In this document: positions 7,193-52,175 of the stretch, in pieces
Layout of the letters: each line of letters starts with the position of its first letter
Position numbering within the stretch: the first letter of the stretch is position 1
Assembly: GCA_963669155.1 (NCBI GenBank)
Contig: OZ022588.1
Coordinates: forward strand, 10,800,067-10,864,066
Direction: 5' to 3'
DNA length: 64,000 nt
DNA from: Arbacia lixula
Lineage: Eukaryota > Echinodermata > Echinoidea > Arbacioida > Arbaciidae
Notes under the pieces: generated by a model
Database searches by the model: none
What the model saw: the letters and a program-made list of their open reading frames with translations, nothing else
Told to the model about the DNA's origin: nothing
Program-made: the position numbers and the translations under genes

Positions 7193-10100
7193 CTGAGAGG
7201 GGGGGTAGACAGGATCACATGCTGCAATTATTGGAGATATTCAATCTTTTGTATTCAAGAAAGCTTCATTTGCATCTCGGCTCAAGAGCTACAAGCATGG
7301 ATGTCAACTGCATTTTCGCAGACAGCCTATCTCACTCTTTGAGATGAGCCTATATTTATGCACATACTATTGATACTACATAAGTAATGCCAGAGTATGA
7401 GCAACTCAAATCACACCTCACAAGCCATCGGCTTTCTGGTGATGCCTTATTTTCATTGTTCATAAAAGTTGTTTATTTTTGTTTGTTAAATGAATAAAGA
7501 ATTGAACTTCAGTGAGCCAAGGTCTGGATTCATGGTCTTGCCTGAGGACTTCTGAGGCTAGGAACCAGATGTAAACCAGGGCCCCGTTGGATAAAACTTA
7601 CCTGTACCATTAATGGTAACTTTGCTCTCAATGGCAACTTCATTGAAAACCTTGAGTTTGATTGGCTGTTGAGCAATGTTACCATGGTAGTTACCATTGA
7701 TGACAGAGTTACCATTAATGGTAAGTGTTATGCAACAGGGCCCATATGAGCACTGAAATACTACTAGTCTGATGTAGGCCTATTGCACCAGTGCAAGAAG
7801 TTCCAGGGCCCTGTTGCATAAAACTTACCATCGATGGTAACTTTTTTTGTGGTAACACTAACAGATTACTCTTGCCGGTTTGTCTTGAGACTGCGAGGAG
7901 CTGCGAAAAGCTCTTGGCGGATTACGTCAACAGACTGGACTCAGACCAAACAATTTACAAGAGAGCATAAACGTCTCGTGAATCAAAGTATCCTCTTCTT
8001 AAAACTGAACGTCTGATTGTAAATCGGATGATGAGCTGCTACCACAGAATGAAAGGGAAGATGGATCAATGGTGGGGCTCTCTGGCACAAAGTGGAATAA
8101 CAGCGTGACAGACAGACAGACAGATAGATAGATAGACGGACAAACGGACAACTCGTATCCTCAATGGATTTGGCAGATGGATTGATGGCCGGAGAGGGAG
8201 CAGGCAGCAATGAGATGTCACTCAAATCTCATATTCCGCATTCAAGCCGCGACACTGATTGACGGGCAGCTAAACAGCGGCCGACGTGCGGGCCGCTATG
8301 CCTTTCACGCTCCCAAGAATCTGGTGTGGGGGACGATGGGATGGTATGGATGGAGCGTACCATTTACAGATAGGGGGGGGGGGGGAGCCTGGTAAAAGAG
8401 CGCAGACGGATGATGATGATGAGCGCTTTGACGCAAGCCGGAGTAATTTGAGTGGGTAGGCGGGATTACTAATCCAGAAGCAAGAGCATTGCAAGACTGT
8501 CAGAAGGAAACTGTACAAACAGATCATGTCGCTCTCTCCCCCTACTTAAATTACACCGGCCTATTAGTAGTACGAGGTAGTGATGGCACGTACACAAACA
8601 GCAAAACACTGTCCTCCTAGTGCAATGTTACCTATGTCACCCATCCACCAGAGTGCAGACCGTTGTATCATCTAACATTGCACGTGATGTATACCCCACA
8701 GATGCCAGTGCAATCGCATTACAGAGCCTGTTGCTACGCACTTAAGGCCTAAAATATGGGCAAAACCAATTGTGTGAGGGCCTGGATTCTGTGGGGGTTT
8801 TTTTGGTCTCATTTAAACATGGCCTTCATTTTTTTACCAGATAGATAATGCAGTGTTTATTATCAGTGAAGGTTTACTGAAAATCTGGCAAAGTAAAATA
8901 AAGTTGTGGTTGTCTGAAATTTTGATTGTGTGATGTCACGTGCGAGGTGCTCTCCCATATGTTGTGTACCAATTTTTGAAAATGTTGATTTTTCTCAAAA
9001 GAATGTGCATCATTTTACTTGTGCATTTGATACATCTTTAGAAACAAGTTTTTACACACATAAATCCTTCATAAAAAAACAGAAAAAGAGCAATTTATGG
9101 AATCATACGCGCACAACATATGGAAGAGCACCTCGCATGTGATGCCACAAAATTGAAATTTTGAAAGATCATAACTATATCATCCTTTGACAGATTCTCG
9201 TGAAACCTTCACTTATATGTTTCTTTCATGTGCCTGCTTTTATTGAAACAAAAATAATTTCAGGGTGAACCATCCCTCCAAACAATATGACCCCCTATGA
9301 TACCATAAATACTGAGAACTCCTGTAGATAGTAAATTGACAATGTGGAATATGGTTCAAGGTGTTGATTTTGTATCAGTCTTGAATTGTGGCCAAGTCAA
9401 CTATTCACTCCTCCGCCCGCCTCCCCTCCTTCCCTCCCCCCCCCTCCCCCCCACCGCAGGTAAATATCTCCCTCACCTGTCCATCCAGCTACAACCCCGT
9501 CATACAGCTCCCTGACGTGGGCTCCCAGGTCGTGCACCTCCCCAGACAGGCCCAAGCAGCGGGCGTAGCCACGGCTGTAGTAGCCGGAGGGGCGCTGGGT
9601 GGAGGCATCCCCCTCCACCGTGCTGGCTAGCTCCAGCTGAGCCTCCTGGGCCTTGTGCAGCAGGATCTTGGCCGAGGTGGAGATGGAGAGGGTCAGGTCC
9701 ACTGGCTTCTTCAGCTCCTGGTGGAGGAGACAAGATGAAATTAATCTCGTTGAGTAACTTGTTTTTCAATAACTGATGAAAAGAAACATTAAAAAACATC
9801 ACATTTCCAAAGCCATTCAAACATACACAGAGCTACCAACATTGAAATTCAACAATCAGGAAGATTTTAGGAAATTTCATCAGAAATCAGGGAGATGTCC
9901 ATCAATTGCATATAACCTATTGACAATAATTTATCAATAATCAGGGAGATTTGGTGATGTGATGAAATCCAGTCCAGTAATATTGCTCTATTTTCAGGGA
10001 GTCTCCTGCAAAATCAGGGAGACTTGGCAGCTCTGCATACATGTAAACAATGTATTGACAGGCATGTATCCATAATATCAATGCATTACCACTGTCTAGG

Positions 10101-13100
10101 GCCCGTTGCATAAAACTTACCATCAACCCTTACTGTGCCAGATAAAATGCAGCTCTATGGAATTTGAGTGAATTAATTAAGAACAAATCTATACACGAGG
10201 CATATTAGGAGTTAATGGTAACTCTGCCATCACTGATAACTACCATGGTAACACAGCTTAACAGCCAATGAAATTCAATGTTTCAATAGAAACTGCCATT
10301 GGTAGCAAAGATACCATCAATGGAAAGTTTTATGCAATGGTGCCCTGGTGAGATACTATTTTACGAAAGAAAAAGAAGTCAGAATTTAGATTCAAGGGCC
10401 CCACTGCATAAAACTTACCATCAATGGTAACTCTGTATTATTCAATGGTAACTGCCATGGAAACCTCACTTAACAATCAAATTCAAGGTTTCCATAAAGG
10501 TTGCAAAGTTACCATCATTGATACGTTTTATGCAACAGGGCTAAGAACTAGAAGAGAGAGGTTGCAGCACTTGGCTAAATGAAGCATCCATCAACAAATC
10601 AGGAAATTTGATTGTATTAGTGCCATGATGCCATAGGGACCTCTCAAATCCCTGGATATGTTCAGCAGCAGTTAGGACAACTAAGGCTGCTCTCACTACC
10701 ACGCTAAAAGGAGGCAAGTCATGTAAGATGATTTTACTGCATATTATTAAACATTTGCCTATAATGTACAGTTTATTTTAAATGAAAGGGCTTTCCAGGG
10801 TTATTTCAATTGGAAAAGAATTAACAAGTGTCAGGTTTACTTCCAGCCTTTTCACATTCATTTACAGCAAAGGAGTATCCTTATATTGGGTGTAAGCTTC
10901 GGTTTATTTTCTAATTTTAAGCATTTATATTTTGAACGCATATCAATTAATAAAACTTTATACTGTGTCAAAATGCCTGCTTCAAGAAAAAATATGCACA
11001 TCATTACTAGAACAGTTACCAAGCTTTAATACAGCCTCTTCATTAAATTTTCTATAATTTTCTTGTGATTAATTTTTATGGTTATTTGAAAGTTGATTAC
11101 AGCTTTGGAAGCTATTAAAAGGACAAGAAGAAAAGAAGCCATGTTCAACAGAAGTAATAAGTAGATTTGATTGATCTGTTGCTTACGTCCTATTAATCTA
11201 TGTCTGGACACATGACACTTTGAGGTCATGTGGACTGGTGATTGGTCTGTGAGTCTGACCCACTTCTGATCACACTGGGGCTGGGGGTTCTAGTCTGCGG
11301 AGTGTGTGAGCATAGACTTAGCACTGCTTCACATCTATGTCTGAATACATAGACTAAGCCCTCTTACTAGGAACAGGGCTTAGATTATGTTTCCAGACTT
11401 AGCTGTTTCCAGAAATAGTTGTGAAATAGTCTGTGCGTCTGACCCACTTCTGATCACACTGGGGCTGGGGGTTCTAGTCTGTGGAGTGTGTGAGCACAAC
11501 ACACAGACTTAGCACTGCTTCATATCTATGTCTGGACACAGAGACTAAGCCCTCTTACTAGGAGCAGTGCTTAGATATTTCCAGACTTAGCTGTTTCCAG
11601 AAATAGTTGTGAAATAGTCTGAGTGTCTGACCCACTTCTGATCACACTGGGGCTGGGGGTTCTAGTCTGCGGAGTTTGTGAGCACAACACACAGACTTAG
11701 CACTGCTTCACATCTATGTCTGAATACACAGACTAAGCCCTCTTCCTTGGAACGGGGCTTAGATTATGTTTCCAGACTTAGCTGTTTCCAGAAATAGTTG
11801 TGAAATAGTCTGAGCATCTGACCCGCTTCTGACCAAACTGGGGCTGGGGGTTCTAGTCTGTGGAGTGTATGAGCATAACACACAGACTTAGCACTGCTTC
11901 ACATCTATGTCTGAATACATAGACTAAGCCCTCTCCCTTGGAGCAGGGCTTAGAATATGTTTCCAGACTTAGCTTTTTCCAAAAATAGTTGTGAAACTGT
12001 TTCTGGCCCATGGATTACACTGAGCATACTACACTCAATCATATGGAGTGCTATATGAATGAAGGTATTGTATTGTACTTTAATATTGCACTTTTTCCAA
12101 CCTTCTGGTTCCATTTGCAGACATAAGACAACTAAGAATATACACGCAAGTTCTGTTACCTGCTTACCAATGAGGAGTATCTGAATTTAAAAAAATAATT
12201 CAAGTATATTCAAATCCCCCCCCCCCCAAAAAAAGGAAAAAAGTGGGAAAGTGATGCATTCTAAATATCTGACAAAATCACTGTGCTACCTCCCTTTCAT
12301 TTCATGGAAAATCTAAAGCCTACATGGTACACAAAATCAGAAGACTTCCCACCCAGAATGTCTACACAGTACACATACGTGTACTATCTATGTTCACAAG
12401 AGTGGATGCCAATAGGGCACGGCACGGGCTGCACAAACCAATTAGCACCTTGCGAATCAATCCCACTAGGGGTGGCCTGAACTATGAATCCATGCCGCCG
12501 CCGCCTAACTTTGTATAACGCGTCCTCAGAAAACTATTTGCCGCAGTCTTTCTCTCATGTGAACTAGAAATATGATGAGCCCGCCAGGCAGCTGGTGTAA
12601 TGAGCTTGGCCGCACTGCCTGGGATTGTTAACACTCTCAACGAAATGAGCAAAGGCCTGTTCACACAAGCCACCTGTATTTGTTCAAATTAACTTACTAC
12701 ACGAAGAGCAAGTAGTTTGGAAGGTGTGTCCAGAAAATTTAATTTGTAGGTGTTTTTTTGGTCGGTTATAATAGTCTTGCAGATTATCCCATGCGGCTTA
12801 TATTTAATATGATTCACAACAAAAAATTGTGTGAATGGTGCTAAATCTGTAGGGTAGATTGCGTTCTTTTGCCAGAAACAGTGTGAATCCCTCAATGAGA
12901 GGGGCAAGGTTTATAAAATAAATTAACACCATTATTTTTGTGGATCTCTGGAGCCAAACTGTAAATAATTTAACACTTTGGGATCCGCGTCAAGATCTTG
13001 GAACCCAAAGTAAAATTTGACAGCAACTACAGTGTAATAATAAATAATGATATGGTATATCATTTCACAAGGGTAGCCTCATCTGCGAGAATACTGCTTT

Positions 13101-19400: not shown

Positions 19401-21807
19401 AATCAGCTGAGTGGCCAAGACCTCCTTATTTCTTTACAGGGGTGCGACAATGCACCTCTATGCTCCTGGTTCTGACCGTGAGTGACGCGGCCTTGCCTTG
19501 AACCTCCAGGTCTCTAAGAGGCAGGCAGGTTTCCACCAATCACATCACTACATTCAATGATAGCAAGTTTCCACCAATCAAATTACCACATTTAATGAGA
19601 GCAAGTTTCCACCAATCACATCACTGCATTCAATGCTAGCAAGTTTCCACCACTCAAATTACCACATTCAATGCAAGCAAGTTTCCACCAATCACATCAC
19701 TGCATTCAATGAGAGCAAGTTTCCACCAATCAAATTATTGCATTCAAAGACAGCATGCACATGTACCAGAGCTACAGCATACTACATAGAGTTCAGACAT
19801 TCATGTGCTTAATAACCATCATTGATACTGGTAATAAAAATGCAGAACCCTCCGGGAATGTAATGTTCACACTGATGAGACTGCCCTAGGTAATTATGAC
19901 CTTCCATGCATGAACTTCATCTCCTTTCTCTATTATTTGATTAGACTTCATCAATACCACTTTTTCTACCCATCCATTTTGGAGAAATAATTTGGTGTTG
20001 CTAAAGATAATATTTTCTCATTGTTATTATATGTCTTAAATATTTTATGTTTACTGTATGTATCAGAAAAAGCACCAGTCCTTTCTTGCTTTAAAGTCAT
20101 TTATCAAGGGACAAAAAGAAATGTATATTTCACCATTAAAAAAAGGGGGTGAGTTTTACATTCTGATCAGCAAAGATTTGATTTCAGTTGATATTAGATT
20201 TTGATATTCAAAGTGATTTTTGCTGCCCTTTAGGTTTTTCTCTATTTTTATTAATTCTTTTTCTCCTTTCTGATGATTTTTCATCCCTCATTTATGTTTA
20301 TGCTGTAATTGAAATTATATTAATAAACACATATGATCAAATATATTAAAACAAAGCAAAAATTCCTTCTTTCTCTGTATATGTACACCATGTAATACTT
20401 ATTTCTTTCTAAAATTTGTGGAATGACCCGCTAAGAACCTAGGTCATTGCACGTCTTAATGATGCTGTAAGTACTACGATGGAGCACCAATGTGGAGACA
20501 GAAACGGGCTACAACACACACACACATACCCATCTCACTCTGCCTCGCTGGAAATGGCTGTGGAGAGGGAGGGCAGGTGGCTTAGCGGAGGGGATATGCA
20601 CCTGTAGCCATGGAGTTGATTTGAAACCAGAGCATTCAGGGCAAGCTGTAGGGCCTCCATCTTTAGAAGGTTTACAGGGCATACTGTACTGGGAAGACTA
20701 AAAGCCTTCAAAAAGGTAACCATGAGCATTCTTCTTGCCAATGGTCTTAAAATCATGTATTGTCCATTTTAGAAACTTGCTGAAAGTTATTTGCCTTCAA
20801 ATGTTCCAAATTTGGAGTAATTAGTGATTACTCAAAATGTTCGGCCCGAGCATTTTGAGGATTTGTGATTTAATTACGAATTACTCCGAATGTGGATCAT
20901 TTGAGGGCAAATCACTTTCAGCAAGTTTCTAAAATGGACAGTACATGAATTTAAGACCATTGGTAAGAAGATTGCTCATCGTCACCTTTTTGAAGGCTTT
21001 TGGTCTTCCCAGTACAGTATATTCCCTTTAACTTTAATCAAATATATAACTTTCTAGTCTTTTGTCGTTGTTGCCTATTCTATAAAATCAAATTTGGTAG
21101 AGTGTTGTGCCTGCGGTTACTTTGTCATGGTCAAAAACACGCTCGGCTGTGTCTCGTGTGTTTAAAGCATGTAAAGTGGCTTTGTGCACAAAATCGATAC
21201 TGGCCCACTCACACCTGCGCATCATTTGAAAACTGACCTAGGACCTACACTGTAGACCAAGCTCACATCAGCCTCTGGACAGGTGGCTGTGTGTGAACTT
21301 CGCTTTAATGTAGGTGAGCACCTGCCCTCTGATAGAGAAGGGGGTGGGGTGGGGAGAGGGAGGGATTGTGGTCACAGATCGTGTGAGTTCAATGAATGGA
21401 CATCATCATGACTCACTTTACAATTGTGTTATTATGATATGTTTTGAAGAAGAACAACAAACAGATCATTGAAACACAAAATAATCTAAAATACTGACAA
21501 AGTTTGCCGTCTTCACAGCAATATATATGCAGCACCTGCCCTCTGATAGAGAGTGGGGCGGGGTGGCAAGGGAGGGGGGGGGGGGGAAGGAGGGATTGTA
21601 ATCACCGATCATGTGAGTTCAATGCATCGTCATCATCATGACTCACCGTATTATTGTGTTATTATGATTTGTTTTGAAGAAGAACAACAAATAGATCATT
21701 GAAACAGAAAATAATCTTAAAAATTGACCAAATTTGTCATTCTTCACAGTAATGCAGTTTCAGATTGATTTGTATGAAAGAGAGAGAGGAAGAGAGAAGA
21801 AGGGAGA

Positions 21808-38900: not shown

Positions 38901-41900
38901 CTAAAGTAATGCAATAAGCTAGTAAATTATGTCATTCAAAGGTATTCAAGGAGGTGTATTAAAAAAAAAAGCTTTGATGAAACTTACACAAAAATGATTT
39001 TAGCTTTTGTCTTATGGAATTTCAAACAAGAAATGGACTGAAATTGTAAGTAATGGTAAACTAGAGCACTTCGGCTACCACGCAATATGCCTCCGCCTCT
39101 TTGCTAGAGCCATTTAGATTTATTCTTAGAAGACGTGTATGTTTGGTGGGTAATGTACCATTGAATTCTTTTGTGAAATGAAAATATCATGTTCTGTTTT
39201 CCCATGTTTAGCCTTCTTTGACTTCCAATCTGACCAGTCTGTCTGAATCCATCCTTTTATCAAGTTTGTTCAAAAGGGTTAACCCTATATAGCCCGGGCT
39301 ATTTTGAAATTGCATAGCCCGGGGGGAGGGGCAAAAACAGCCCCCCCCCCCTAAGATCTCGACCGTTGATCGCGCGATCGCGACGAAAATTGGCACGCAC
39401 GTCACCGATGCCGTGATCTCCACAATTCAATTGTCAATTGCACCAAAATTATTCAAATTTCTTTTTTTTTAAATTTTTTTTTTAAAATTAATTAATTATG
39501 CTAATTAAATGCATAAAAATCATAATTTGGTTGTAAATCTTTAAATACAGCCCCAAAACTGCTAGATATAAGTCCAGACACTTTTCTTAGGATTATTATC
39601 AAATTAGGATTTTAAAAAGTGGCAATATCAAAGTTTTTCTTATGTATTTTATTGTTTTTTGAATTTCTTATGTATTTCTTTGTTTTTTCGACTCTATGTT
39701 TTTCATTGTTTTTTGATGGAAATTGTTGGCAACACGATTTCAGTCATAAATAACATGAAATCTATTGTTTTTCATCAGTAAAAATAGAAATAATGATACA
39801 TTTATGAATTTTGGCTAGATACAGAATTTGCATTAAATTTGTACATGAATCACATTTTTGAGCAATTTTTGGTCCGACATGCACATACAAAATGTTACGT
39901 AACTTCGGAACCGTGTACCCCTGTGTCGCAAATTTGATCTTAAAAGTTGCGTGAGACTTGAAGGAAAAATGTCATGAAACGTCGCGGCACGATCTTTTCG
40001 TGTTACAAATTTATTGCGAAAAATGTCGAGGGGGGGGGGGCTGTTTTTGCCCCCCCCCCCCCCCCCCCCCCCCCCCCGGGCTAGATAGGGTTAAGGGTCT
40101 TATAAAGAAAAGTCATGTGACCATGAAAACAGGGCTAAACAGTGTTGTCAAAGGGTTAAACAATGCTTTACAGGAGGAAAGTCACCCTGAATACCACAGC
40201 TAAACAGTGGAGTCAAAGGGAGGGTTTAACAATGTCTCATAAGAGGAAAGTCACCATGAATAACATAGCTAAACAGTGGAGTCAAAGGGTTTAACAATGT
40301 CTTATAAGAGGAAATTCACCATGAATAACATATCTAAACAGTGGAGTCAAAGGGTTAAACAATGTCTTATAAGAGGTCACCATGAATAACAGAGCTAAGC
40401 AATGGACTATCAATGCAGTGAAAGGGTTAAACAATGTCTTACAAGAAGACAGTCCCCCGAACACCACAGCTACATTCCACATTTCAAGTCCATACCTCCT
40501 GCTGTTGAGATTCAAGATTCTTCCTCTTTGCTTGTTCTTCGCTGATCCTCTCTTTCCATGCTTCCTCCATCTCTACCATCCTTCTATGCGATTCAGTTAG
40601 TCGTTCCTTCAGTCCTTCCACCTCATCATTCCTCTTCCTCCGTTCATCCTCGCTGGTTTTCCTTCCTCTGGTTGAGTAGCCCATGGACTTCAATTTCTCA
40701 ATCTCAGTTCTCAGCTCTGTCAAGAAAAAATCAGACAGCATTGGATTCAGATTCAGAATCATTTTATTGGTCCATTTGGAAATTCATTTTGTCGGCATTA
40801 CATGGAGAAGAGAATATGGTAAACACAAGTAGATAATGCACAGCTAGCATGCCACATTTTTCCTTGCAATATTTAGGCAGTTTTTGTTGAATTCATTGGA
40901 TTTTCAGTCAGACATTGACAAAAAAAAACCTTAATTACAAAACCAAAATTCTTTGATAACGCATGTACACTTTATGTCCATGGCATGTACCAGTATGTGT
41001 TGGTCCAGATTAAAATGTATCCCAGTATGAATTTAGTATCCCCGTCTTAATGACACACGTCAAGCAGAAAAACCCCTCTTCTAATCTGATGAGCTTACCT
41101 CGGATGAGTCTTGCATTGGGGTCCTCGTTCACCTTGGCCACGTTGATGATGGAGCGTGCCTGCTTGGCGTATCTGAGCGTGCTCAGCGTCTCCTCGCTCT
41201 GCACGTTGGCCGGGCTCACCGTGGCGATCATGGCTGTCTTTGCGTTGCCTCCAAGACTCTCCCGCAGCAACCTGCCAAGATGGAGTCATCATGAACAGAG
41301 TGTTCACAACTCAAGCACAAACAATGCACCATGTTTCCCCCTGAAGCCAGATGCATTGCTTATGCTTCGTCTTATTTTTTCCTGTAATTTCGGCCAATCT
41401 TCAAATGCTGCCCTGATCACGGCTACATTTTCTCAGTACTTGCTGTGTTTTAATTGAGTTTCGGGGTTTTTGATCCAAATAGTTTTTTTTTTTGCACAAT
41501 CGCTTATAAATTGTGCGCATTCAAAATCTACACATAAAAAAAGAAGACATGCAGCGTTATGATAGTAAGTACTTGGTATTTGAACTGATTCATTCACTAC
41601 ATGAAATATCGACGTAACAGCGATATTTGAGTAATGCAAAAAGTGATATCATGCAGCACTTTCGCCCAATCACCAAGTGAGGACGCTGTCTCAGTAAAGG
41701 ATGAAGACCTTCTCCTTGGGGTTGAGGGACTTGTCTAAGAGGTTAGGTTTAGGGTTTAGGGTAAGGGTTAGAAACCCCGGTAGAACGGTGTTTCTTGTGA
41801 GGAGGAAGAAAGAACCACGCCCACTCACCAAGTAAGGACACTGTCTCTGTAGGGGATGAAGACCTTCTCCTTGGGGTTGAGGGACTTGTCTAAGAGGTTA

Positions 41901-44900
41901 GGTTTAGGGTTTAGGGTAAGGGTTAGAAACCCAGGTAGAAAGGTGTTTCTTGTGAGGAAGAAGAAAGAACCACGCCCACTCACCAAGTAAGGACACTGTC
42001 TCTGTAGGGGATGAAGACTTTCTACTTGGGGTTGAGGGACTTGTCTAGGAGGTTAGGTTTAAGGTTTAGGGTAAGGGTTAGAAACCCAGGTAGAAAGGCG
42101 TTTCTTGTGAGGAAGAAGAAAGAACCACGCCCACTCACCAAGTAAGGACACTGTCTCTGTAGGAGATGAAGGCCTTCTTCTTGGGGTTGAGGGACTTGTC
42201 TAAGAGGTTAGGTTTAAGGTTTAGGGTAAGGGTTAGAAACCCAGGTAGAAAGGTGTTTCTTGTGAGGAAGAAGAAAGAACCACGCCCACTCACCAAGTAA
42301 GGACACTGTCTCTGTAGGGGATGAAGACCTTCTTCTTGGGGTTGAGGGACTTGTCTAAGAGGTTAGGTTTAGGGTTTGGGGTAAGGGTTAAAAACCCAGG
42401 TAGAAAGGTGTTTCTTGTGAGGAGGAAGAAAGAGCCACGCCCACTCACCAAGTAAGGACACTGTCTCTGTAGGGGATGAAGACCTTCTTCTTCGGGTTCA
42501 GAGACTTGTCTGAGAGGGCAGAGATCACTTTCCCCAGCGTCATCAGGGACCGGTTGATGTTAGCCCCTTCCTGCACACAAGGCAACAGGATAAACATAGG
42601 GATAAATGAGCAATAATTCCTCATACCACTTTTATAAAGGGAGTCTATCTCTTTTGCAGGTTGAATATAAATACTACATTAATCCTGTCAGTGCCATGAC
42701 ATAAAAAAGCATACTGAATTATTATAAATTTATTGAAGCCATGGTAATAACATCTGAGCCTCCACCCCCTCCATATTTCATTGAGTCATAACATATTTGT
42801 GCCTATGCTTAAGTCATGTGCTTGAACTAATTCGAAATCGGAGTGGTATGCAAATTAAGACACATATTTGATTATTTTGTATCATAAGAGCATTATATCA
42901 TTCAGGTGAGATTGTGTCACAGTGACTCTTTCTGTTTCATTTTCAGGAGCACAAGTTTACACCCATTTCACTCTTAATTATTTTGGACTCGAAGTATACT
43001 TTACCATTTCCAGGTAAGAATTTGTCAAAATGGCTTTCTTTGTTATATTCAGGAGCACTGCTTTGCATTGTAAGGCCTATATGTAAATTTGTTCACTGCT
43101 TGTAGAATGTTTAAAAACAAAACAGAGTCAAACTCCTTGTGTGCCAGGTGTGCATTTTGTCACCAATATTGCACCTGTTGCCATGGTAGTTACTATTAAA
43201 GGTAAGTTACAATAATTGAAAACCTATATGTAACATGGCCCAGGTGAAGAATTAAGGAGTGTGTGTGTTACCTTGAGCCTGTCGCCCGTAGTGTTGGTAG
43301 CTGCACAGCGCTCGCTGCCAGCCAGGTCGATGATGTTGATCTTGCTGGTCACGCTGTGGATGTGCTCTTCTCCGTCAAACAGCTGCTTCTGAAAGACAAC
43401 ACAAGCAGGCACTCATTGTTGTCAATAGAATCTCACCATCACGTACCCTTGGGGAGGCTTGACCTGAAAACTACGTAACCTTTCTCAGACCAAGGAAGGG
43501 TTTCACCGAGATTTGTACACCACTGGTGACCTGTTCTTGGGTGCCAAATCAGGTTCTCAATGATTTTCATTCCCATCAACTGATCTGATCTTTTTGATCA
43601 AAAATTCTTGCTGTTAACAAGGATCTGAAGACAAACTCTATACTCTGTCAAATTTGATTGGGATTGTAGGAAATTCCCTCCCACTATATTAAAAGATATT
43701 GCTTCATAATTTTGATATTTTTTTCATTGTAGTCTTGCCTAACATTTGAAACAAAGAATGATGACAAACCAAGTTTATAACACTGTGACGCCACATCATT
43801 TTTGGGAGACTATGTCATCCCACATATTTCTCATCTCCTTGATTTTGGTGCAAACCCAATGGAAAGACAGTGTCTCCTTTCATAAAATTCACAAAACCAT
43901 GATTATTTTTCTTTTCTAATCACTGCAATTTATTGATTTTGATATTTTGCGCTGGAGATGAAAATCTTGTTAGTCATACTTTTGTCTTGGTCATCATGAT
44001 GACGAAGACGGAGTGAGAGCGACTGGACTTGTCGTTCATGCCTGTGGCTGCCGTGGCTCGCTGCTTGTTGCCGTTCTCTATCCAGGAGTGGATGTCACCG
44101 TATGAGCTGGCTTGAAATCTGAGTTAGAAATAGCCAAGTCATGAGAATTATCAGCCTGTGCCATGTATAGTAGGATGTGCATACAATATGCAATTTATAA
44201 TTGGATTTATCACATTTTGAATTAGAAATAGCCCAATTATAACAATTGTTGTCAACAAAACAAAGGTGAAATCTACCATAATTTGGATGAAAATAAGCTT
44301 GTGATGCATGCACAGAGAGTGTGCAATGTGTTAGAGCTGCTGGCTAAAACCTGTCACTTTATATTGCAAAACATCTACTACAAGCATCATATTGAGTGCT
44401 TTCACACTGTGATGAATTTGCAATTACAGTTATGTCTTCTGAGGTTTCTCTTCCTATTTAAGTGAATGGATATCATGCAACACTTTCACAGTTATCTGCC
44501 ATCCAAGCTTTGGAAGAGTAGCAAAAACATTCGGAAATAATTCAATGCAAGAAAATGAGGAACTTACTTTGAGAGGCCTTCAACATAAGGACCTTGGGTT
44601 GGATGCTCTCTCACTTTCAGCTGTGGAGAAAGAGGAGAACTAGTATTATAGTCCAAGGTCCTGTTGCATAAAACGTACCGTTAATGGTAACTCTTCCATC
44701 AATGGTAACTACCATGGTAACATCGGTCAACAGCCATTCAAACTCAAGGTTTTCATAGAAGTTGCCATTGGTAGCAAAGTTACCATCAATGGTAAGTTTT
44801 ATGCAACAGCGCCCAGAACTTAATGGGAAGAGAAGAATAACAGATGCCATGCATACAAACCCAGTGATATCGTTGAGACCATTGATATGGAAAATTTGCC

Positions 44901-48849: not shown

Positions 48850-51800
48850 GACATGTCAGGTCAGGTTAGTCCTGCCACTGGTCATCGTGTAATCCAGTGC
48901 TACCTGTTACACGGTCGAGTGCTCGGCGACTAATACGGGCAACCCACGCTAGGGCATTAGCTCTAGGGTGAGGAGGGGGTGCCGGACCCCCTGTCAGAAT
49001 TAAAAACCAGATCTGACTTGAGTTCCTTTAGATCGGGCTGAAGTCCAAGGAACTCATCCGACCTCTACCAATCCACCTTGCCAGTGTGGTAGAGTATGGC
49101 ACACATCCCTTATCATTTATGGATTTAAGATTAAAGAGAGGTCGTAACGCCCATGGCCGGAACGGGCCCAGCTCTAGAAATAGAGCTAGGAATTCGGCGA
49201 CTGCTGATACTTCTGGTGTCAAGCCAAAGTATGACGAGTTGGGTTTAAAGCCGCAAGGAGGACCCAAATCTGATAGAAGAATCATCACGAGCCATACAGA
49301 TTTGTTTATTTGTACATATAATGTAAGGACATTGAGAACAGAGGAAGACCTAGATGCTCTACTGGAGGAAATAGATGATGTATCATGGCACATAATAGGA
49401 TTAGCGGAAACTAGGAGACCAGCGAATCTCATCAAGTTATCAAAGTGTGGACATACACTGTTCACAACATCAGCAACAAACAAAAGTTGCAATGGAGTTG
49501 GATTTCTTGTGAATAAAGAGGTTGAGGAAAATATCATGGAATATAAAGAAGTATCAGACAGGATAGCTTTTGTGAAAGTACAGATCAATAGTAGCCATAC
49601 AATGAAAATTATTCAAGCATATGCACCAACTACCAGTCACACAGATGAAGTCGTTGAAGATTTTTATAGTAAAATTGACAACATAATGACAACAGAATCC
49701 ACAACGTTTACGTTACTTATGGGTGATTTCAATGCCAAGGTTGGAATGAGAAAGGATGACGAGGAGAGTGGTGTAGGCCCATACGGGATCGGAGAAAAGA
49801 ATGAAAGGGGAGAAAGACTACTGGAGTTTGTATCAAGCAGGAACTTGACAATTGGCAATACATACTTCCAAAAACCTACCAAAAACTACTGGACACGGGA
49901 AAGCCCAAATGCAGCAAATCACAACTTGATAGATTACATAATTTGCGATCATCGTAGAATCCTGATGGATGTGGGAACAGTACCAAAGGTGGATACAGGC
50001 AGTGATCACCGACTTGTTAGAGCTAAAGTAAGGATTAACAAGAAAATGGAAAAAGTGAGAAGGGTAAGGAAGCCTAGGAGGAGACATATTAACTTAGAAC
50101 TACTTTCCAGTAAGCAGGAGCAGTTCCAGCTTGAGTTACACAATAGGTTTGAAGTGTTGGCAGATTCAATAGAGAACCAACCATTAGACACTTTCTATGA
50201 GCAAATAACAAGAACAATTATGGATGAAGCGGAAAAGCTAGCTAAGGGGGAGAAAATGGAGGGCAACAATACAGACAAGGAAAGAGAGGAGATACAGAGA
50301 TTGAATGAGAAAAGGAAAGCCCTTAAGCCCTCCAGACAGACATCAACACGTAACCAAGTTGAATATACAGAGCTGAATAAAACAATTCGCAAGATGAGAA
50401 AAAAGCGAAAGAGAAAGATCAGGACCAAGATGGTACGTGAAGTGCTAGAAAACCACAAAGGACCAAAAATCATCAACAGAAAGTTAGAGAGGGGTAAAAA
50501 GCTTCTGTCATCACTGAAAACAAAAGATGGGACAGAAGTTAATGACAAAGAACAGATTACTCAAGCCATTGAGGACTTCTATAGAGAACTCTATAGCACA
50601 GACCAACCCGATTGGAGAGTAAATGAGGACTGGAATGAGAAATCAAATGATGTTCCACCAATACTTAAGGAAGAGGTGAAGAGTGCTTTAGATCAAATGA
50701 AAAGGGGAAAGGCTCCAGGGGAGGACCAAATGACTGCAGATATTTTAAAGTTGGGGGGAGAGGACACCATATCAATCCTAACAAAACTGTTCAACAAGAT
50801 CATGCAAATGGAACAAGTACCTACCCAGTGGAATGAATCAAAAGTTATCATACTGTTCAAGAAAGGGGACATGAAGGACATCAAAAATTACAGGCCCATT
50901 AGTCTGTTGCCTCATATATACAAAATCTTCACACGAATTCTTCTTGCTAGAGTAGAGAAACAGCTTGATGAAAATCAACCACAGGAACAAGCTGGATTTC
51001 GGGCAGGATATAGAACATCAGACCATCTCCACACCTTAAGCCAGATAATCGAGAAGGCAAAAGAATACCGTTTCGACATCTGCCTTGGCTTCGTTGATTA
51101 CGAGAAGGCATTTGACAGCCTAGACCATCAGTCATTATTCAATGCCTTAGGAAAGCAGGTCACAGATGGAAAGTACATTCGCCTAATTAAGAACATCTAT
51201 AAGGACTCCAGTGCCCGTGAACATCTAGAAAGCACTACAACAAATGCCTTTAAAATCCTGAAAGGGGTAAGACAAGGTGACCCCATCTCACCAAAACTCT
51301 TTACTGCAGCTATGGAGGATGTCTTCAGAAACCTTGATTGGTTTTCATTGGGAATAGTCGTGGATGGCGAACACCTGACACATCTCAGATTTGCAGATGA
51401 CATTTTACTTCTTAGCCATACACCTCAGGAACTGGAAAAAATGGTCCGAGAACTAAGTGAAGAAAGTAGAAAAGCTGGACTGAAAATGAATATCACAAAG
51501 ACAAAGGTAATGATGAGCAGTAGATTCAAAGAACACAAAATCACAGTCAGGGGGAGGACTGTAGAAAAGGTAGACAACTACATATACTTGGGCAAAAAGA
51601 TCTCCATTGAAAACGAAACAGCAGGGGAAGTGAATAGAAGGATCCAGTTGGCTTGGGCAAAATTTGGCAAGCTCAACTTTATCTTTCGTGATGAGAAGCT
51701 CCCTCTTTCTCTCAAGAAACAAATTTTCAACCAATGTATCATACCTGTGCTCTCTTATGGAGCAGAAACATGGACCACAACTTTGAGACTGGAGAGAAAA

Positions 51801-52175
51801 CTTAGAGTAACCGAAAGGGCTATGGAAAGAATTATGATTGGTATTACAAAGAGGGACAAAGTTAGAAACCAGGATTTGAGAAAGAAAACTAAAGTACGGG
51901 ACATAGTACAGGAAATTAAATCAAAGAAATGGAGGTGGGCTGGTCATCTGGCCAGGAGGAAAGATGACAGATGGACATATAAATTAACCCCTAATCTGGA
52001 CCCCCAGAGCTAACACCAGAAGAAGAGGCAGACAAAGTAGGAGGTGGATTGACGATATTAGAGAATATGGTAGTGTGACATGGAAACGAACGGCACAAGA
52101 TAGATCAAGATGGAAAAATGATGAGGAGGCCTTCCTTCAGCAGTGGAGAGAAATAGGCTAAATAGAATAGAATTC
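48850..52175 (+). mobile_element. RTE/BovB-like non-LTR retrotransposon in KIF14 intron 1
   Basis: About 3.3 kb, in the opposite orientation to KIF14. A G/C-richer 5' leader (about 48850-49085) precedes one long ORF coding endonuclease and reverse transcriptase. The element ends shortly after an AATAGAATAG tail. The C-terminal pattern after the RT (KKWRWAGHLARR, then in another frame RRGRQSRRWIDDIREYG) is characteristic of BovB-type RTE elements. The borders are approximate because I could not define target-site duplications. Confidence 0.85.
49086..52013 (+). CDS. LINE endonuclease-reverse transcriptase, frameshifted near its end
   Basis: A 975-residue ORF of a non-LTR retrotransposon, which nicks DNA and primes reverse transcription at the nick. 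Endonuclease motifs: TYNVRTLR (about 75), GLAETRR, GDFNAKVG (about 211), LIDYIICD and SDHRLV (about 305). Reverse transcriptase: KNYRPISLLPHIYKI (about 601), VDYEKAFDSLDH, GVRQGDPISPKLF and the catalytic FADD (about 768). It stops at 52011-52013, but the adjacent frame continues the family's C-terminus (WTPRANTRRRGRQSRRWIDD to QQWREIG) and ends at 52161. A one-base indel near 51990 has therefore cut off about 55 residues. No other stop interrupts it, so the insertion is young. Confidence 0.9.
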   Translation: MVEYGTHPLSFMDLRLKRGRNAHGRNGPSSRNRARNSATADTSGVKPKYDELGLKPQGGPKSDRRIITSHTDLFICTYNVRTLRTEEDLDALLEEIDDVSWHIIGLAETRRPANLIKLSKCGHTLFTTSATNKSCNGVGFLVNKEVEENIMEYKEVSDRIAFVKVQINSSHTMKIIQAYAPTTSHTDEVVEDFYSKIDNIMTTESTTFTLLMGDFNAKVGMRKDDEESGVGPYGIGEKNERGERLLEFVSSRNLTIGNTYFQKPTKNYWTRESPNAANHNLIDYIICDHRRILMDVGTVPKVDTGSDHRLVRAKVRINKKMEKVRRVRKPRRRHINLELLSSKQEQFQLELHNRFEVLADSIENQPLDTFYEQITRTIMDEAEKLAKGEKMEGNNTDKEREEIQRLNEKRKALKPSRQTSTRNQVEYTELNKTIRKMRKKRKRKIRTKMVREVLENHKGPKIINRKLERGKKLLSSLKTKDGTEVNDKEQITQAIEDFYRELYSTDQPDWRVNEDWNEKSNDVPPILKEEVKSALDQMKRGKAPGEDQMTADILKLGGEDTISILTKLFNKIMQMEQVPTQWNESKVIILFKKGDMKDIKNYRPISLLPHIYKIFTRILLARVEKQLDENQPQEQAGFRAGYRTSDHLHTLSQIIEKAKEYRFDICLGFVDYEKAFDSLDHQSLFNALGKQVTDGKYIRLIKNIYKDSSAREHLESTTTNAFKILKGVRQGDPISPKLFTAAMEDVFRNLDWFSLGIVVDGEHLTHLRFADDILLLSHTPQELEKMVRELSEESRKAGLKMNITKTKVMMSSRFKEHKITVRGRTVEKVDNYIYLGKKISIENETAGEVNRRIQLAWAKFGKLNFIFRDEKLPLSLKKQIFNQCIIPVLSYGAETWTTTLRLERKLRVTERAMERIMIGITKRDKVRNQDLRKKTKVRDIVQEIKSKKWRWAGHLARRKDDRWTYKLTPNLDPQS

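Follow-up and report, generated by a model that had tools for sequence, protein, structure and literature searches.

In a KIF14-like gene of the echinoid Arbacia lixula, the 3' end of one motor-domain exon, its splice donor and part of the adjoining intron recur at regular spacing in the intron downstream. The true donor is thereby followed by several sites that look just like it, which raises the question of whether the copies alter the messages made from this gene, represent a new exon and intron in the making, or are repeat DNA that happens to overlap an exon. We examined the locus within a window of 64,000 nucleotides, the whole stretch of DNA that was analyzed (contig OZ022588.1, assembly GCA_963669155.1), and compared it with other loci of the same 607-Mb assembly. 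Over the 250 residues compared, the COX1 frame of this assembly stays open under mitochondrial tables 5, 9, 13, and 14 but not under table 2; its two AAA codons, at SSN-IAHAGG and RNINTTFF, lie where asparagine is expected, which favors table 9, the code common to echinoderms and flatworms.

The motor exon and its downstream array

Eight exons on the minus strand, running from 47086 to 41099, can be linked through GT-AG splice sites to give a kinesin motor domain with an open frame. Among solved kinesins, the best PDB match of this domain was 6wwi_K, a KIF14 structure, at 487 bits, and the next kind of kinesin was KIF13B at 402 bits. By sequence comparison, then, the gene is KIF14-like and belongs to the kinesin-3 family, its motor domain being closer to KIF14 than to other solved kinesins, and the name given to it in the preliminary description holds. 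The junction from 42449 to 41271, which joins the array-bearing exon to the following one, keeps the motor-domain reading frame open. The other seven of the eight assembled motor exons in the window showed no partial copies.

TABLE 1 Features of the array-bearing exon and its surroundings in window coordinates (a slash marks an exon boundary)
Feature	Position	Strand	Description
Preceding true exon	43272..43388	-	Open frame joins the array-bearing exon
Intact KIF14-like motor exon, 122 nt	42449..42570	-	Acceptor side 42570; donor TTG/GTGAGT after 42449; frame joins neighbors
Tandem array	41663..42517	-	Tandem Repeats Finder; 5.5 copies of 155 bp, counting the 3' end of the exon itself
Intronic part of repeat unit, 94 nt, first of five	42355..42448	-	Matched only at the KIF14 locus
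Copy 1, 61-nt exon end	42294..42354	-	Frame open; donor GTGAGT
Copy 2, exon end	42139..42199	-	Frame open, 2 missense changes; donor GTGAGT
Copy 3, exon end	41984..42044	-	TAG stop; donor GTGAGT
Copy 4, exon end	41829..41889	-	Frame open, 1 missense change; donor GTGAGT
Copy 5, exon end	41674..41734	-	TGA stop; damaged donor GTGATT for GTGAGT
Following true exon	41099..41271	-	Acceptor cttggcag/GTTGC; open frame

Tandem Repeats Finder gave the array 95% matches and 0% indels, and the exon pieces, starting at 42509, 42354, 42199, 42044, 41889, and 41734, are spaced exactly 155 bp apart. Each unit consists of 61 nt of exon end, the donor and intron, the intronic part measuring 94 nt, and the 61 nt of shared exon are extended by a near-match of about 8 nt (CCTCTYAG). 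Copies 1 to 4 are complete, and copy 5 matches the unit only up to 11 nt beyond its exon piece. Minisatellites are built of head-to-tail units, each about 10 to some hundred base pairs long and present several times, and this array, with 5.5 copies of 155 bp at 95% matches, is one of them.

Much of the preliminary description agrees with this anatomy. It had the last 70 bp of the exon repeated, which is right if the near-match is added to the 61 shared nucleotides, and it had an exact 155-bp period, which was recovered both from the six exon pieces and by Tandem Repeats Finder. Its five further copies hold for the four complete ones, the fifth ending shortly after its damaged donor. Three copies were indeed found with both frame and donor (at 42354, 42199, and 41889) and two with stops, one of them without its donor (TAG at 42044; TGA and GTGATT at 41734), and the near-identical decoy donors that it pointed out are those of copies 1 to 4, all GTGAGT.

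The differences among the copies were few. Among copies 1 to 4, 4 of the 61 exon-like positions and 6 of the 94 intron-like ones are variable, and the four exon-like sites comprise two first, one second, and one third codon position, one of the changes creating the TAG. All four of these copies depart from the true exon and its adjoining intron at 3 of 61 exon and 3 of 94 intron sites, and the three coding differences all lie at third positions. Between copies 4 and 5, five exon-like sites differ, three of them at third positions; this adds nothing to the contrast and leans the other way. Over so few sites, the pattern fits, weakly, a constrained exon beside drifting copies.

The whole array had one match in the 607-Mb assembly, and for the 94-nt intronic part no matches were found genome-wide beyond the five units of the KIF14 array, both match counts being lower bounds. 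Introners and other mobile intron elements leave near-identical copies at many loci. That the intronic part was matched at this locus and nowhere else, by counts that are lower bounds, speaks against a dispersed or mobile unit, and we discarded that candidate.

The region is rich in minisatellites. Tandem Repeats Finder also reported arrays with periods of 191 bp, 38/76 bp, and 65 bp at 11245-11996, 19525-19755, and 40120-40406, respectively. An element with inverted ends (TGTTGCATAAAAC ... GTTTTATGCAACA) lies at 44655-44810 inside a KIF14 intron; translated pieces near 7773, 10290, 24650, and 30040 resemble it by eye, and it looks like a small foldback or MITE-type repeat. An open frame of 993 codons on the plus strand (49032-52010), with an endonuclease-like start, resembles a non-LTR retrotransposon.

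Predicted splicing across the copies

Splice sites were scored with a small matrix built from 17 acceptors and 15 donors chosen by eye from the window and the other loci. The decoy donors of copies 1 to 4 and the true donor all scored 3.0, and the donor of copy 5 scored -2.1. The true donor thus falls below the lowest genuine left-out donor (4.0), which marks the donor matrix as rough. Moreover, the sequence around the donors of copies 1 to 4 does not differ from that around the true donor for at least 25 nt into the exon and 14 nt into the intron. Equal in sequence and in score, these sites could be told apart only by their position and broader surroundings.

The acceptor side looked different. 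Each copy starts at an AG, so a 61-nt mini-exon is possible in principle. The five copy acceptors scored only -0.9 to 0.3, against 2.6 to 12.1 for the 17 genuine acceptors in leave-one-out scoring, and 18 to 23% of all AGs on the minus strand of the window score as high as they do. The matching AG inside the true exon, at 42509, scored 6.0, within the genuine range, which indicates that the copies lost acceptor strength via the sequence that precedes them. The true exon acceptor scored 14.3, but this site belonged to the training set.

We modeled 42 alternatives to the junction from 42449 to 41271, comprising 31 combinations of copies, 5 downstream donors, and 6 inner acceptors, and all 42 meet a stop. 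Each of the five downstream donors, when used from the true acceptor, runs into TGG TGA, and read-through past the true donor does give ACT TGG TGA, as had been claimed from the first inspection. Copies taken as 61-nt mini-exons join as TG/A, and hence TGA, in all 31 combinations, and an inner acceptor in place of 42570 leads to a stop in six of six uses. With copy combinations and downstream donors, the stop lies at or just past the junction. A mini-exon cassette was rejected on these grounds, the 31 stops at the junction and the weak acceptors. In the models, extended exons or mini-exons could only yield mRNA with a premature stop and no new protein; every alternative stops, so their use could at most reduce the yield of good mRNA and could not give an altered full-length protein.

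A lowering of that kind might in itself be the function. Decoy donors or 61-nt mini-exons would then be spliced in part of the transcripts, nonsense-mediated decay would destroy the products, and copy number would tune the KIF14 level. The four decoy donors, indistinguishable from the true one across the exon-intron junction, speak for such a leak, as do the stops in all modeled nonstandard products and the CTAAC-like branch-point motifs that directly precede the copy acceptors. We nevertheless regard a working leak as unlikely: those acceptors are weak, copies 1 to 4 bear no visible constraint over their few variable sites, and similar copies lie beside many unrelated exons, as described below, so that no special role in KIF14 is needed to account for them.

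Exon-edge copies at other loci

A genome search with the kinesin domain gave repeated hits at one exon, and Tandem Repeats Finder, run on the loci, then showed more arrays at exon edges. We therefore surveyed the family-hit exon of 80 loci: 30 kinesin loci out of 126 matches, 30 myosin loci out of 73, and 20 tRNA synthetase loci, the latter being 25 matches minus five (L033-L035, L054, and L057) on two bacterial-looking contigs, C208 and C360. ABC-transporter exons (55 matches listed) lay outside the survey. A partial copy was counted where part of the exon recurred on the same strand within 1.5 kb on either side, over at least 40 bp at 75% identity with 25 bp inside the exon hit. For the control we took segments of the same length from the sequence flanking the exons at these loci; those from one locus are not independent of one another, and other exons may lie among them. 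The tRNA synthetase frames on C208 and C360 contain 1 to 17 in-frame TGA codons each, which suggests that these contigs are bacterial and use TGA for Trp; they may come from a mollicute symbiont or a contaminant of the sample.

Partial copies adjoined 7 of 30 kinesin exons, 1 of 20 tRNA synthetase exons, and 5 of 30 myosin exons, or 13 of 80 in total. The pattern was first noticed in the kinesin set (7/30), and the other two sets gave 6/50. Among flank segments, the corresponding counts were 61/360, 50/240, and 52/360, for a total of 163/960. An earlier run over 50 loci had yielded 8/50 exons versus 57/300 flank segments, and at 85% identity or higher the full survey retained 8/80 exons versus 87/960 flank segments. 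A cross-locus control, with one other locus for each exon, and a reversed-sequence control each returned 0/80. Targeting of exon boundaries was rejected as a candidate, since exons (13/80) showed no enrichment over flanking DNA (163/960). Exon-edge copies were thus present next to roughly a sixth of the sampled exons, a rate similar to that of repeats in the surrounding DNA, and they are a frequent structure in this genome. The earlier view of such arrays as rare finds no support in this genome, given these 13 exons and three arrays that were not counted among them. At such a frequency, the KIF14 array is itself probably silent repeat DNA and no special device of its gene.

Judged by eye from sequence and splice motifs, the copies lie on the acceptor side in 7 of the 13 cases (L008, L009, L015, L019, L029, L070, and L077) and on the donor side in 6 (L003, L018, L052, L073, L085, and L087). 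The matched stretch crosses the splice boundary in 12 of 13, again by eye, that of L009 stopping at the exon edge, and in no case do both copies fall inside the exon. The weakest two of the 13, L015 (75% over 57 bp) and L009 (77% over 60 bp), are less certain. The three arrays beyond the 13 are those of KIF14 (donor side), the first array of L019 (donor side), and L002 (acceptor side, about 8 copies); the latter two sit on exons outside the counted hits.

The kinesin gene at L019 (C21:15808950-15812210) has two exon-edge arrays, at 217-646 and 831-1565. The donor-side array holds about 2.4 copies of 176 bp, and the acceptor-side array holds about 7 copies of 105 bp over the P-loop exon, most of its units having an exonic GTAAGA. 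Further multicopy exon-edge arrays, in kinesin, myosin, and tRNA synthetase genes, are located at L002 (2180-3150), L018 (1222-1578), L087 (648-1591), and L052 (1041-1560).

These structures invite comparison with intron gain. In the potato RdRp gene, a tandem duplication that crossed an exon boundary made a new intron with a donor recruited from the exon, according to Ma et al. (2016, PMC4974935). A duplicate in KIF14 would, by analogy, be turning into a new exon and a new intron. The geometry is the same but mirrored, the true donor being paired in KIF14 with an AG drawn from within the exon. At L019, a true acceptor is paired with the exonic GTAAGA, which scored 7.1, a value reached by 2.3% of GTs, and the potato donor GTAAG likewise came from the exon (PMC4974935). 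The exonic GTs in the units of L008 (score 6.2, reached by 4.1% of GTs) and L002 (score 1.8, reached by 21%) are less striking. As a pair of sites, a KIF14 copy offers a donor equal to the true one and an acceptor-like site well under the genuine range (-0.9 to 0.3 versus 2.6 to 12.1). Frame is lost as well, all 31 combinations joining as TG/A, so no new coding exon could arise without further change; intron gain itself requires no retention of frame, as splicing out of the intron suffices (PMC4974935). Taken together, we consider an intron gain in progress at KIF14 very improbable.

That the array is only a stutter of one exon in the assembly is scarcely credible, since the copies carry different substitutions and the array spans less than 900 bp, and comparable structures are present at independent loci, with other periods and on other sides; the array is real.

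Proposed origin of the array and comparison with known systems

The explanation that we consider probable is a near-neutral minisatellite that overlaps the 3' end of the exon, with the first donor in use. We infer its duplication mechanism, the use of the first donor in cells, and its near-neutrality as follows. A tandem duplication across the 3' boundary of the exon would have taken 61 to 70 nt of exon, the donor, and 85 to 94 nt of intron, and unequal exchange or slippage would then have expanded the duplicate into a 155-bp minisatellite within the intron. The duplication would have been nearly harmless at its origin because the whole-exon copy at the edge of the array keeps the strong acceptor. 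Splicing would use the first donor, at 42449, and the remaining copies would drift as intron sequence. More generally, local tandem duplication, which is common across the sampled DNA, would be indiscriminate, with selection filtering the outcomes to retain one intact exon. The extra donors may carry some benefit or cost.

A broader reading is possible, though doubtful. Tandem duplication across exon edges, touching about one exon in six, would provide a running supply of duplicate splice sites, and splicing would tell identical sites apart by context. Array length, varying between individuals, would set the amount of full-length mRNA of genes such as KIF14, and occasionally an array would become a new intron. 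A genome with edge copies at about one in six sampled exons, on both sides and in varied states of decay, would make this route to intron gain testable in bulk. The same holds for the rate at which duplicate splice sites are used, the side that better tolerates copies, and the way in which splicing picks among identical sites.

Intronic minisatellites, or VNTRs, commonly show an exact period, near-identical copies, and a degenerate end copy. The KIF14 array is like them in all three respects and unlike them in having coding sequence and a true splice site within its unit. It resembles poison exons in that each modeled inclusion of a copy leads to a premature stop, and it differs from them in that the copies lack a good acceptor. 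Among the matches listed from open-license literature, none described, in its title or abstract opening, arrays of this kind in sea stars.

Two published cases of intron gain are closer in kind. Tandem duplication within the reading frame probably accounts for 5 of 31 novel intron positions in Drosophila, and an exon segment that contains a cryptic AG/GY motif can give rise to an intron when it is duplicated, as stated by Lehmann et al. (2010, PMC2891723). Those duplications, as described there, lie inside coding sequence, whereas the KIF14 unit extends across a real boundary, with intron making up over half of it. The potato RdRp case (PMC4974935) is nearer still, because there, too, the duplication crosses an exon-intron boundary and carries one true splice site together with an opposite cryptic site in the copied piece of exon. 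The potato case has two copies on the acceptor side and a new intron supported by 106 RNA-seq reads; the KIF14 array has 5.5 copies on the donor side, and each modeled new product stops. Of the arrays described here, the one at L019, with its exonic GTAAGA, resembles the potato case, and the KIF14 array is its mirror image.
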